Below are positions 36,815 to 39,683 of a stretch of DNA of 64,000 nt, piece after piece. Source of the DNA: Natronococcus sp. A-GB7. Lineage in GTDB: Archaea > Halobacteriota > Halobacteria > Halobacteriales > Natrialbaceae. The notes beneath the pieces were generated by a model. The model worked only from the letters and a program-made list of their open reading frames with translations. It was not told the DNA's origin and searched no databases. A program made the translations under genes and the position numbers. Numbering within the stretch: the first letter of the stretch is position 1; each line of letters begins with the position of its first letter. The DNA is taken from NCBI RefSeq assembly GCF_029688865.1, contig NZ_JARUKV010000025.1, positions 1 through 64,000 on the forward strand, written 5' to 3'.

Positions 36815-36930
36815 TCGATGCGACCCACGCCGCGACTGCGGAAACACGTACGGTGAACGTACTCTCATTGGAGAAAGACTATGGAGATATCGAGGTGAAA
36901 CGAGTTCCGCTAGAACCTGCCGATGAATGA
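36815..36930 (+). pseudogene. Truncated vapC remnant (C-terminal 37 codons)
   Basis: An open frame beginning after the epimerase gene encodes the last 37 residues of a PIN-domain toxin in frame to a TGA at 36928-36930, differing from the intact VapC at 38084-38467 at five positions. The toxin's N-terminal two-thirds is missing, and no start codon or antitoxin precedes it. It is part of a 172-base copy that continues into an aroQ tail (36815-36986). Confidence 0.85.
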
Positions 36931-36986
36931 CGTAGCAATACTTCCGCCGCGTGCTACCGATTCTCGCGTTGCTTGACCTTGTTCAG
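36815..36986. repeat. 172-base direct repeat, copy 1 (vapC tail + aroQ tail)
   Basis: Aligns without gaps to 38352-38523 with about 20 mismatches counted by eye. The last 34 bases (36953-36986) are the 3' end of a chorismate mutase gene read on the minus strand (LNKVKQRENR then TAG), orphaned here. The copy stops at the same aroQ codon as copies 2 and 3. Confidence 0.9.
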
Positions 36987-37041
36987 GTCTCGGACTGATG
37001 TTACAGATCTCGTCTACTTTGCCGGTTTCTGGTGCATCTAT

Positions 37042-37326
37042 TCAGTCGTCGTCAGCGGTATACGCGCCTCCGCGACGTTTGATTCGAGCAACGACCATTC
37101 GGTACTCGTCTTGATCGAACGTGACCGCGAGACGGAACTCACCAATACGTACCTTACGGCGTGGACTGTTCTGGAGCGGTTCGCCATAGTCCGGTGGGTC
37201 TCGCCACGGAGAATCGACGATTTCGTCGAGTTTGTCGATAATGCGTTGCTGCTCGTTCGGATTGAGTGCATCGAGGTCGTCCTGTGCTTTCGATGCGAGT
37301 TCCCACGCCCACCCGTCGTCACTCAT
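37042..37326 (-). CDS. RelE/ParE-family toxin
   Basis: A 94-residue toxin of the RelE/ParE superfamily, which in the RelE branch cleaves mRNA at the ribosome. Helical N-terminus (AQDDLDALNPNEQQRIIDKLDEI), then SPRRKVRIGEFRLAVTF and RMVVARIKRRGGAY, the beta-sheet and basic C-terminus with RIG-RL and the RIKRR element. I start at ATG 37326, which overlaps the antitoxin stop by eight bases (ATGAGTGA); the longer frame would extend into the antitoxin gene. Bracketed by aroQ-tail repeats. Confidence 0.9.
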   Translation of the reverse strand: MSDDGWAWELASKAQDDLDALNPNEQQRIIDKLDEIVDSPWRDPPDYGEPLQNSPRRKVRIGEFRLAVTFDQDEYRMVVARIKRRGGAYTADDD

Positions 37327-37603
37327 TCGTGTCGCTAGTGCCGAATCGTTCACGTGCTTCTTCGGCGCTCATCGTCCGTTCTTCACGAACGTCTTCTTCA
37401 GCTTTGAGGAGCGCAACGAGTTCATCGCGGTCGAACGTAGGGTGTTCGACGGCATCGCGTAAGGTATACCGAATAAATTCGCTCCGGCTGTTGAATCCTC
37501 GTCCTTGCCACGTGTCTTCGATCTCGTTGAGAAATGACCGTGTGACTTTGAAGTTTACCGTAACGATCTCGTCGTCGCCGTTGTTTGTGGCCGCTTCGGA
37601 CAT
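37319..37603 (-). CDS. Ribbon-helix-helix antitoxin
   Basis: A 94-residue protein. The RHH DNA-binding domain (VTVNFKVTRSFLNEIEDTW...FNSRSEFIRYTLRDAV, about residues 14-52) is followed by an acidic C-terminal tail (DRDELVALLKAEEDVREERTMSAEEARERFG) that should wrap the toxin. Upstream of and overlapping the RelE-like gene, the normal antitoxin-first order; the complex probably autoregulates. Confidence 0.9.
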   Translation of the reverse strand: MSEAATNNGDDEIVTVNFKVTRSFLNEIEDTWQGRGFNSRSEFIRYTLRDAVEHPTFDRDELVALLKAEEDVREERTMSAEEARERFGTSDTNE

Positions 37604-37705
37604 ACGTTTGTATTACCTGCGTGTTACTGTAGGTGTTTCGGCGTCCGAACGCTGAAGCTGTTGGCGAGGAGAAACAGTAGTAGATCCGTAAGATTAGTGT
37701 CGTTT

Positions 37706-37739
37706 GCTACCGGTTCTCACGCTGCTCTACTTTGTTCAG
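37706..37739. repeat. 34-base aroQ 3'-end repeat, copy 3
   Basis: Reads on the minus strand as the last ten codons and TAG of chorismate mutase. All differences from the native gene end (38490-38523) are synonymous (AAA/AAG, GTA/GTG, CGT/CGC, AAC/AAT, CGG/CGA). It sits between the two toxin-antitoxin modules and ends at the same codon as the other two copies. Confidence 0.85.
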
Positions 37740-37841
37740 ATAGACAATATCCAATGTGCGAACAGATGAAACACTGATGTCCGTACCATCAATTCTCTAC
37801 TGGTGGTAAGATTCTTTGTCTGTGGTACCGTAGTCGCACCT

Positions 37842-38087
37842 ATGTCAGCAGAAACGGACGGGCAGGGGAGGTTGTACATTCCCAAAGATGTACGAGAAAA
37901 ATACGGCGAGAAGTATCACATCGTCACGTACGAGGACAGAATCGAACTCGTTCCGGTTGCGGACGACCCCCTCGCTGCAGTCCGTGAAGCGGCAGGCGAG
38001 TTACGTGATGCGTCTGTCGACGATATTCGCGCGGATATCGAAGCAGAAGCGGAAGCTGAGGCCCGTGAGAAAGGGGACGATAGATGA
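37842..38087 (+). CDS. vapB: SpoVT/AbrB-type VapB antitoxin
   Basis: An 81-residue protein. The swapped-hairpin DNA-binding domain (GQGRLYIPKDVREKYGEKYHIVTYEDRIELVPV, about residues 6-39) is followed by an alanine/glutamate-rich helical tail for toxin binding. Start ATG 37842 (MSAETDG). Its TGA overlaps the vapC ATG (ATGA), the usual VapBC coupling. Confidence 0.9.
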   Translation: MSAETDGQGRLYIPKDVREKYGEKYHIVTYEDRIELVPVADDPLAAVREAAGELRDASVDDIRADIEAEAEAEAREKGDDR

Positions 38088-38467
38088 CGGTCTACGTCGA
38101 AACCGACTTTCTACTCGCGCTCGCCAAAGATTCGGACTGGTTGCAGCAATCAGCAGAAGAAGCACTCGACGAGTACGACGTAGAAACGTCGGCCTTCTCC
38201 TATCTCGAACTCCTCCTCGCCCGGGAACGGTACGAGTTCGATTACGTCCCACTCGTGGCAAATCTGCTCGAACTCGTCCCTGTCCGAGACGAGGAAGAGC
38301 GACAAATCGTTCTGAAGGCTGTCAACTACTACGACGAGGGAATGACGCCGTTCGATGCGTTCCACGCCGCAACTGCAGAAACACGTACGCTGAACGTACT
38401 CTCATCGGAGAAAGACTACGAAGACATCGAGGTGAAACTAGTCCCGTTAGAACCGGCCGATGAATGA
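38084..38467 (+). CDS. vapC: PIN-domain VapC toxin
   Basis: A 127-residue PIN-domain ribonuclease. The acidic active-site set is present: D8 in VETDFLLALAKD, glutamate in SYLELLLA (about residue 42), aspartate in TPFDAFHAA (about 91) and aspartate in SEKDYED (about 111). It should cleave tRNA or rRNA when released from VapB. Its end is convergent with aroQ, 23 bases apart. The C-terminal third is duplicated at 36815-36930. Confidence 0.92.
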   Translation: MTVYVETDFLLALAKDSDWLQQSAEEALDEYDVETSAFSYLELLLARERYEFDYVPLVANLLELVPVRDEEERQIVLKAVNYYDEGMTPFDAFHAATAETRTLNVLSSEKDYEDIEVKLVPLEPADE

Positions 38468-38523
38468 CGTAGCAACACCTCTGCCGCGTGCTATCGATTC
38501 TCGCGCTGCTCCACCTTGTTCAG
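38352..38523. repeat. 172-base direct repeat, copy 2 (native vapC and aroQ ends)
   Basis: Contains the end of the intact vapC, the 23-base spacer and the last ten codons and stop of the intact aroQ gene. Reference copy for the orphan copies at 36815-36986 and 37706-37739. Confidence 0.9.
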
Positions 38524-38817
38524 TTCGATCAGCAGCCGGAAGATCGCTTTCACGAGGTTCGCGTCGACGTCGAACTGCTCGGCGTTGTGACCCGCTCGCT
38601 CCATCACCTGCTCCTCCTGTTTCTCGTCGGTCGTCGGCAGGCCCTTCTCGTCTTTGACCGCCGCGATCGTGTCCGCGACGTAGGTTCGCTGGGCGATCAG
38701 CTCGACGATCTCGCGATCGATTGTCTGGATCTCCTCGCGGAGTTCGTCGAGGTCCATCTCTTCGGGCGCTCGATCCGTCGACTCGGTTCCGTTCGTGTCG
38801 GTATCGTTCGGTGTCAT
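38491..38817 (-). CDS. aroQ: Chorismate mutase (AroQ class)
   Basis: A 108-residue protein. After an acidic linker of about 20 residues the AroQ helical fold begins (MDLDELREEIQTIDREIVELIAQRTYVADTIAAVKDEKG, split here by position about 21-60) and ends LIELNKVEQRENR. The arginine in the first helix and the lysine of AVK are the substrate-contacting positions. Converts chorismate to prephenate. Co-transcribed after shikimate kinase (ATGA overlap). Its 3' end is the repeated unit of the neighbouring toxin-antitoxin region. Confidence 0.93.
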   Translation of the reverse strand: MTPNDTDTNGTESTDRAPEEMDLDELREEIQTIDREIVELIAQRTYVADTIAAVKDEKGLPTTDEKQEEQVMERAGHNAEQFDVDANLVKAIFRLLIELNKVEQRENR

Positions 38818-39683
38818 GTGGTTCGTGTCCCGTCGGTTCGCGTCGTCAGTAGCCGCGTCGTTCCGTCCCGCTCGTCCCATCGTTCGCGGATCTCCTCGAG
38901 CGTCGACCGGTCGCCGACGGCCACGTAGCTCGGCCCTGTTCCCGACAGCGAGACGCCGGCGGCGTCGGGCATCGCCTCGAGCATCGGTCCCGTCGGGAAC
39001 TCGAGAGCGCCACAGAACGCGAAGCCGTTGACGGTCATCGCCTCGCCGTAGCGGCCCTCGAGGGCCAGCTCCTCGACGAGCTCGGCCATCGGCGCGATCC
39101 GCTCGCAGGCCGAGACGTCGGCGTCGGCGCTGAAAGCCTGTTCAGGCGGGGTGTACACAAGCGCGTCCCAGTCGACGGGTTCGCGGGCGAGCAGCTCGTC
39201 GGTCGCGTTGTCCGTGACCGTCACCCCACCGAGCATGCTCGCGCTGGCGTCGTCGAACGCTCCCGTCGCCGTGACGCCGGCGTCGCGGGCCGCCCGCACG
39301 CCGAGCCGGCAGGCATCGATCCGATCGACGGCGTCGGTGATCTCGAGGGCGTCGAGGGTCGCCAGCACCGTGGCGTTGGCCGCGGCGCTCGAGCTCTTGA
39401 GCCCGGCGGCCATCGGGATCTCGCTCTCCGTCCGGACCCGAGCGCCGACGTCGCCGGTGAGCCCCGCGGCGTCGGCGTACTCCTTGAGGGCGAGCTCGGC
39501 GCAGCGTTCGACGAGCCCGGTGTCGGCGTCCGGCTGCTCGGCGACGGTGCCGACGACCTCGCCGTCGGTCGTCAGCTCGACCGTCGCGGTCGTCTCGAGA
39601 TCGATCGCGAACGCCGATCCGCGACCGGTCGCGAGCGCGTTCAGCACGGTTCCGGCCGCCGACGCAACAGCCCGGCCATCCAT
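38814..39683 (-). CDS. Archaeal shikimate kinase (GHMP family)
   Basis: A 289-residue GHMP-type kinase, unrelated to bacterial AroK. IPMAAGLKSSSAAANATVLATL (about residues 93-114) is the ATP loop PxxxGLxSSxA. TGAFDDASASMLGG and SGTGPSYVAVG are the other GHMP motifs. Phosphorylates shikimate in aromatic amino acid synthesis, and the following gene takes chorismate to prephenate. Start ATG 39683 (MDGRAVAS); the longer frame covers upstream shadow. Confidence 0.94.
   Translation of the reverse strand: MDGRAVASAAGTVLNALATGRGSAFAIDLETTATVELTTDGEVVGTVAEQPDADTGLVERCAELALKEYADAAGLTGDVGARVRTESEIPMAAGLKSSSAAANATVLATLDALEITDAVDRIDACRLGVRAARDAGVTATGAFDDASASMLGGVTVTDNATDELLAREPVDWDALVYTPPEQAFSADADVSACERIAPMAELVEELALEGRYGEAMTVNGFAFCGALEFPTGPMLEAMPDAAGVSLSGTGPSYVAVGDRSTLEEIRERWDERDGTTRLLTTRTDGTRTT

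Follow-up and report, generated by a model that had tools for sequence, protein, structure and literature searches.

The question raised by this locus is why aroQ, the chorismate mutase gene, which is present as one copy in the genome, should be followed by further copies of its own 3' end. In the window, by which we mean the whole 64,000-nucleotide stretch of DNA that was analysed, aroQ and its orphan tails are interleaved with small toxin-antitoxin (TA) genes, and the following features were assigned, read downstream from aroQ.

38491 to 38880, minus strand: aroQ, chorismate mutase (Pfam CM_2, E 7.8e-20)
38491 to 38523, minus strand: present aroQ tail and newest junction, core CTGAACAAGGT, found by tail scan; a type A cassette tail
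37740 to 38490, unstranded: interior of cassette 1, a vapBC-type TA unit (784 nt including its tail)
38084 to 38467, plus strand: PIN-domain toxin gene, VapC-type (Pfam PIN, E 3.4e-08)
37842 to 38087, plus strand: antitoxin gene of cassette 1, an ORF whose relatives are annotated as AbrB/MazE/SpoVT family
37740 to 37773, minus strand: right end of cassette 1, class T consensus (..attggatattgtctat preceding the tail), conserved across unrelated cargo clusters
37707 to 37739, minus strand: copy 3, the displaced aroQ tail of the ParE cassette, predicted to be the previous working end
36987 to 37706, unstranded: interior of cassette 2, a ParE-type TA unit (753 nt including its tail)
37319 to 37603, minus strand: probable antitoxin gene of cassette 2, ribbon-helix-helix-like by eye, an ORF overlapping the toxin gene
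37042 to 37353, minus strand: ParE/RelE-type toxin gene (Pfam ParE_toxin, E 5.9e-06)
36987 to 37020, minus strand: right end of cassette 2, class G consensus (..tgtaacatcagtccgagac preceding the tail)
36954 to 36986, minus strand: copy 1, predicted to be the oldest displaced aroQ tail, with one Glu-to-Lys change
36815 to 36953, unstranded: older vapBC cassette remnant, truncated, an 88% repeat of 38352-38490

The native aroQ terminus is CTGAACAAGGTGGAGCAGCGCGAGAATCGATAG, which encodes the peptide LNKVEQRENR*. Copy 3 differs from it at tail positions 9, 12, 21, 27 and 30, and all five changes are third-codon and synonymous (K, V, R, N and R codons). Copy 1 differs synonymously at positions 12, 18 and 30, and at position 13 by a change of Glu to Lys. 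Both patterns had been reported in a preliminary description of this DNA and were reproduced by direct comparison. Copy 3 was also present where it had been placed, at 37706-37739, except that the tail itself is 37707-37739 and 37706 is one base extra. Copy 1 lies within a 175-nt repeat (36815-36989 versus 38352-38526, 88%) which also includes the vapC 3' end; in the older remnant this end is on the plus strand and reaches 36930. With their PIN and ParE toxin domains and small partner genes, the two pairs in the window can be classed as putative type II toxin-antitoxin systems. The label of the cassette 1 antitoxin is taken from an annotated homologue in Haloterrigena alkaliphila, and a Pfam search returned no match for this ORF or for the candidate antitoxin ORF of cassette 2.

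The tail was searched for in 125 genomes of the family, Natrialbaceae, with a degenerate pattern, using the same pattern reversed as the control. There were 257 matches against none for the control, which excludes chance likeness of the tails, and 78 of the 125 genomes carried at least two. Each species is represented by a single genome in these counts, some of the assemblies are drafts whose arrays are interrupted at contig ends, and detection tolerates up to 3-5 mismatches, so that strongly decayed tails are missed. At 117 loci oriented by aroQ, 135 extra tails lay downstream of the gene on its own strand and none on the opposite strand. Outside the family a somewhat more permissive pattern, for which control matches were occasional only, matched at least twice in 105 of 290 Halobacteria genomes, and loci from families f3, f6 and f9 showed the same array arrangement as Natrialbaceae.

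We propose that a class-wide system of site-specific integration uses the 3' end of aroQ as its attachment site and stacks cassettes there, each consisting of a tail and its cargo; from the sequence comparisons given below we put the probability of this reading at about 0.86. A free, probably circular unit would carry a recombinase core, YTGAACAARGT, a replacement aroQ tail and cargo, which would most often be a TA pair. The unit would recombine with the core in aroQ, so that the aroQ body would be joined to the incoming tail, whose near-identical peptide would keep aroQ functional, and the old tail would end up at the far side of the insert. Repeated events would give an aroQ body followed by tail plus cassette, old tail plus cassette and so on, with the newest unit usually beside aroQ.

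Across 80 genomes, 128 complete tail-to-tail units were counted, every one on the strand of aroQ, and their lengths recur exactly. The 784-nt family comprises 21 complete copies in 13 genera and the 753-nt family 21 complete copies in 9 genera. Five TA clusters, classed by their representatives, hold 92 of the 128 units: MazF/PemK, PIN with an AbrB-type partner, ParE, VapB-VapC and PIN_2. PemK, PIN, VapB and PIN_2 domains were likewise found in cassettes elsewhere, and the typical TA cassette measures about 0.75-1.1 kb. The remaining cargo consists of small genes, for example acetyltransferases, metal or phosphate transporters and regulators. It is likely that TA cargo dominates because it is resistant to loss. 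In one cassette type (L034, L035, L068 and L083) the tail is followed by some 130 nt of conserved non-coding DNA, in which ATCTTCCGGTTGCTGTT appears near +60; the genes beyond it are unrelated and differ by genome, and the conserved DNA perhaps represents integrase arm sites.

The fixed units bear on the possibility that cassettes came only in whole arrays or large islands which then suffered deletions, the small units never being separately mobile. In its favour, large integrase islands occupy this site too, and bacteria are known to have decayed tandem elements (CIMEs, PMC5704250). Against this, exact 753- and 784-nt units stand alone, and in varied orders, in many genera, and repeated deletions would have had to reproduce the same units each time. 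We consider this explanation unlikely, and independent movement of single cassettes the more probable reading.

Comparison between genera gave evidence of horizontal spread. Copies of the window's cassettes in other genera are 91-98% identical, whereas the aroQ bodies there share only about 70-85%. Cassette identity showed no relation to that of the aroQ body in the three largest families (Spearman 0.04, 0.03 and -0.10), with 0.37 in the fourth. Eight other genera (g3, g6, g10, g13, g14, g16, g17 and g28) have a counterpart of cassette 1 downstream of aroQ, at 91-94% over 728-751 nt. The ParE cassette and its counterpart in G105 (g23, Natronorubrum) share 98.1% identity, 98% over 720 nt, with the aroQ bodies at 75% (78% by BLAST). 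Three genomes outside the genus, G088, G105 and G122, have working aroQ ends that are letter-identical to copy 3. Comparing the tails with aroQ ends of other genera thus gave exact matches to copy 3, and supported the earlier proposals that the orphan tails evolved as real aroQ ends elsewhere and that they travel with toxin-antitoxin DNA; they have been in service as gene ends within Natronococcus as well as in other genera. Among long matches, 26 of 28 for the ParE cassette (at least 450 nt, 85%) and 22 of 24 for the vapBC cassette (at least 650 nt) were behind aroQ; of the four exceptions three are on aroQ-less contigs that carry a tail, and one is elsewhere in the chromosome of G088. This last relative of the ParE cassette (C1:277254-277834, L344) is far from aroQ, has no recognisable aroQ tail, and is the only copy that clearly stands apart from the arrays.

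In order to relate tails to their surroundings, cassette types were defined as clusters of the DNA 3' of each tail. Tail positions 9, 12, 15 and above all 18-30 vary with the type of the downstream cassette, with mutual information of up to 0.71 bits (shuffled mean 0.08), and no clear dependence of tail bases on the class of the upstream sequence was observed. TGAACAA, at tail positions 2-8, is nearly invariant. Since the tail is linked to the cassette downstream of it and TGAACAA hardly varies, strand exchange can be placed, in all probability, within or beside this stretch. At class G right junctions, including that of cassette 2 with the next tail in the window, a perfect inverted repeat GACCT-GAACA-AGGTC surrounds the TGAACAA stretch, as seen directly and as a hairpin on folding. 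The right ends of 36 unrelated cargo clusters match one another at a median of 26/34 positions, compared with 15/34 for interior control segments. Two right-end consensus classes, T and G, are common to unrelated cassettes and to large aroQ islands: island right ends match cassette right ends at 33/34 positions in G082, 29/34 in G111, 24/34 in G014 and 32/34 in G260. As these ends are shared, cassettes and islands appear to use one attachment system.

The same junctions allow homologous recombination to be weighed, in which a foreign aroQ with TA genes downstream would recombine locally and the leftover ends would become orphan tails. Haloarchaea often recombine, and the differences among tails are those of real aroQ genes. 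The joins, however, share only about 11-17 bp, unit lengths are exact, the right ends common to unrelated cassettes are not aroQ sequence, and tails are exchanged whereas the part of the gene upstream of the core remains that of the host. These features make homologous recombination improbable as the source of the arrays.

The arrays of Natronococcus relatives, interpreted as products of site-specific integration, can be read as a sequence of arrivals. The ParE cassette, with a copy-3-like tail serving as the working end, is first in G001 (N. amylolyticus), G003, G005 and G008, and is second, with other units ahead of it, in the window genome, G002 (N. jeotgali), G004 (N. pandeyae) and G006, whose array ends at a contig end. 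A vapC 3' remnant follows the ParE cassette in the window genome, G001 and G004. The window genome, G001 and G006 have an identical remnant breakpoint, from which that of G005 deviates by no more than one base, so that the remnant is older than their split. The comparison of filled with unfilled Natronococcus sites indicates that copy 1 is the oldest scar and that the native tail was the last in. The order of arrival read from these arrays is therefore the vapC remnant with copy 1, then ParE with copy 3, then vapBC with the native tail. The native tail is, on this comparison, the newest arrival, the vapBC cassette having brought the present end and retired copy 3. This turns round the preliminary description, in which the orphan tails were the ones that had probably come in from other genomes: four Natronococcus relatives still have the equivalent of copy 3 as their working end, and the native tail came with the vapBC cassette that displaced it. 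Nor did that description recognise a precise, class-wide attachment site as the mechanism. G003 has an extra unit between the ParE cassette and the vapC remnant, and hence insertion is not invariably beside aroQ.

Displaced tails decay. Of 113 first tails, 104 encode an intact LNKVEQRxxR* peptide; the figures are 48 of 80 for second tails, 14 of 41 for third tails and 5 of 13 for later ones. Since intactness falls with rank, the synonymous-only changes are best explained by selection acting for as long as a tail is in use, with deterioration after its retirement. The earlier argument for purifying selection rather than decay accordingly survives in part: selection acts while the cassette is first, and decay sets in once it is displaced. 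Decay in place as the origin of synonymous-only changes can be ruled out, because retired tails lose the peptide with rank. The N. amylolyticus tail matching copy 1 retains Glu; the Glu-to-Lys change of copy 1 fits post-displacement decay on this account, and looks like decay after retirement.

Integrase genes were found at the same site in several genomes. A PF00589 tyrosine recombinase lies 62 nt from the aroQ stop in G082, with a 72-kb island; about 130 nt from the stop in G111, where a 61-kb island precedes four tails in a row; 1.9 kb from the stop in G014, with a 32-kb island; and 10.6 kb behind aroQ in G323, from another family. The aroQ-site integrases are related to one another; they gave Pfam PF00589 E values of 3e-11 and 4.6e-11, with PF00589 as the only domain, and are phage-type. 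The G082 and G014 enzymes are 41% identical and conserve R188, H309xxR312 and the C-terminal tyrosines; the motif of the island integrases is ARH, not RHT, and they were detected by Pfam search. By domain and by their R...HxxR...Y residues, the aroQ-site enzymes are thus predicted tyrosine recombinases. No integrase was found in the parts of the G260 island that were examined. In most cassettes no sign of a larger element was seen. In the array of G075, a tail that matches the G082 island at its left end precedes a remnant of such an integrase, which would fit an origin by decay from a larger conjugative or mobilizable element. In G082, G014 and G111 (L165, L166 and L296) the AroQ C-terminus is changed to REKSQDSDQIRDYNK, REIK and NYHIRDENDTQWDDN endings. 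As the islands change the C-terminus instead of restoring it, the last residues of AroQ seem to be dispensable.

The genome of the window showed no PF00589 match near the array and no close relative of the aroQ-island integrase family (P0001). It has a resident 353-aa tyrosine recombinase (L295:4140-5201, contig C14), about 33% identical to the island integrase, which could be a candidate trans-acting enzyme. Distant relatives of P0001 are present in 122 of the 125 family genomes. The P0001 family itself occurs in 57 of 391 class genomes, mostly away from aroQ. At 12 loci with P0001-family integrases, no aroQ tail was seen beside the C-terminal end, except in G111, and the nearest plasmid-borne enzymes are distant (at most 36% identity over part of the protein). 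A P0001-family integrase of a visiting island, or the resident relative, may move the integrase-less cassettes in trans.

Several of these features recall integrons, and a true integron, with attC cassettes, an IntI integrase and the aroQ tail as attI, was considered. The aroQ array shares with integrons a series of small, TA-rich mobile units, an enzyme that is mostly absent, and a newest unit that usually lies near the fixed end; moreover, archaeal integrons exist (PMC9668308). However, only 76 of 241 tails have GTTRRRY or its complement close to the core, and three junctions that were folded gave no long attC-type hairpin (z -1.0, 0.8 and -2.6). The enzymes at the site are phage-type with islands of 32-72 kb, no IntI was found at the array, the core lies within a protein-coding gene, and the archaeal integron paper makes no mention of Halobacteria (PMC9668308). 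Integron membership is consequently unsupported, by attC motif, by hairpin and by adjacent IntI alike, and we regard this explanation as very improbable. Local tandem duplication of the aroQ end followed by drift would explain why copies are side by side on one strand, and is excluded for practical purposes, since arrays are found across the class and copy 3 with its cassette is closer to other genera than to the local aroQ end, copy 3 being identical to working ends in G088, G105 and G122; the refuting test set in the preliminary description thus also goes against duplication. Returning to site-specific integration at aroQ, it may be that the arrays constitute an integron-like haloarchaeal gene-capture platform of independent origin, with the aroQ 3' end as a permanent dock where visiting or resident tyrosine recombinases insert single-gene or TA cassettes in trans, and where aroQ codons belong to the attachment site and are swapped with every capture; we hold this broader view tentatively, at slightly less than even odds.

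Replacement of a gene's end by an incoming element has precedents in bacteria. In E. coli, phage 21 and e14 replace the 3' end of icd with element DNA, and the changes are mostly synonymous. At aroQ the 3' end is similarly swapped and the old end is left at the far side; unlike the single large prophage, aroQ has a serial cassette array. SCC elements in staphylococci use the last codons of rlmH/orfX as the attachment site and replace them, by means of the Ccr serine recombinases. The aroQ arrays resemble SCC in that the end of a housekeeping gene is replaced, and in their tandem composites and recombinase-less remnants. They differ in the gene (aroQ, not rlmH), the archaeal host and the much smaller units, and the enzymes found at aroQ by the PF00589 search are tyrosine, not serine, recombinases.

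Closer in organisation are CIMEs of the ICESt1 type, integrase-less elements between att sites that accrete in tandem (PMC5704250). The aroQ array likewise stacks integrase-less units at the 3' end of a gene: direct-repeat att sites bound the 128 units, integrase-bearing elements occupy the same site in G082, G111, G014 and G323, and the right ends match for the first three. Unlike CIMEs, the aroQ units are single genes or TA pairs of recurring exact length spread over a whole archaeal class, and conjugation genes were not found in them. Archaeal tyrosine integrases, according to the excerpted part of PMC8371274, use mostly tRNA genes as sites, together with several coding genes or intergenic sites, and tandem integrations at one locus have been reported there. 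The aroQ-site enzymes share the Pfam domain and the integration at a gene end with these, and aroQ is not among the sites named in the excerpted part of that paper (PMC8371274). We would therefore file the aroQ array with the integrative elements of tyrosine recombinases at gene 3' ends, as a putative class-wide cassette array. Searches of the open-access literature turned up no account of the aroQ integration site or its array; an earlier account in a subscription journal is possible.

If this assignment is correct, there is one address at which recent gene acquisition in haloarchaea can be read in order, the retired ends marking relative age. How tiny TA modules without mobility genes spread between genera, a long-standing question, would become testable. 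The arrays would add an archaeal cassette-stacking system built on a core metabolic gene, and integrases with a short predicted site could become tools for halophiles. Trees and selection tests which include the last ten or so codons of aroQ should be treated with caution, as these mix two histories.

With regard to carriers, no IMG/VR virus contig with an aroQ tail or an island integrase was found. This result speaks against the proposed system, as do the absence of a close P0001 relative from the window genome, the tail-less ParE relative of G088 and the position of the extra unit in G003. Eleven tail matches were on plasmids; the three that were examined all sit behind chorismate mutase on an aroQ-bearing replicon, and were rejected as free plasmid carriers of the tail. 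A tail match in Halobacterium sp. DL1 was about 5.4 kb behind that strain's own chorismate mutase. In Haloterrigena, Natronorubrum and Halomontanus, chorismate mutase and its array are on secondary replicons of about 160-400 kb (records include NZ_CP084320.1, NC_013747.1 and NZ_CP119800.1), and in two secondary-replicon records examined chorismate mutase is accompanied by shikimate kinase.
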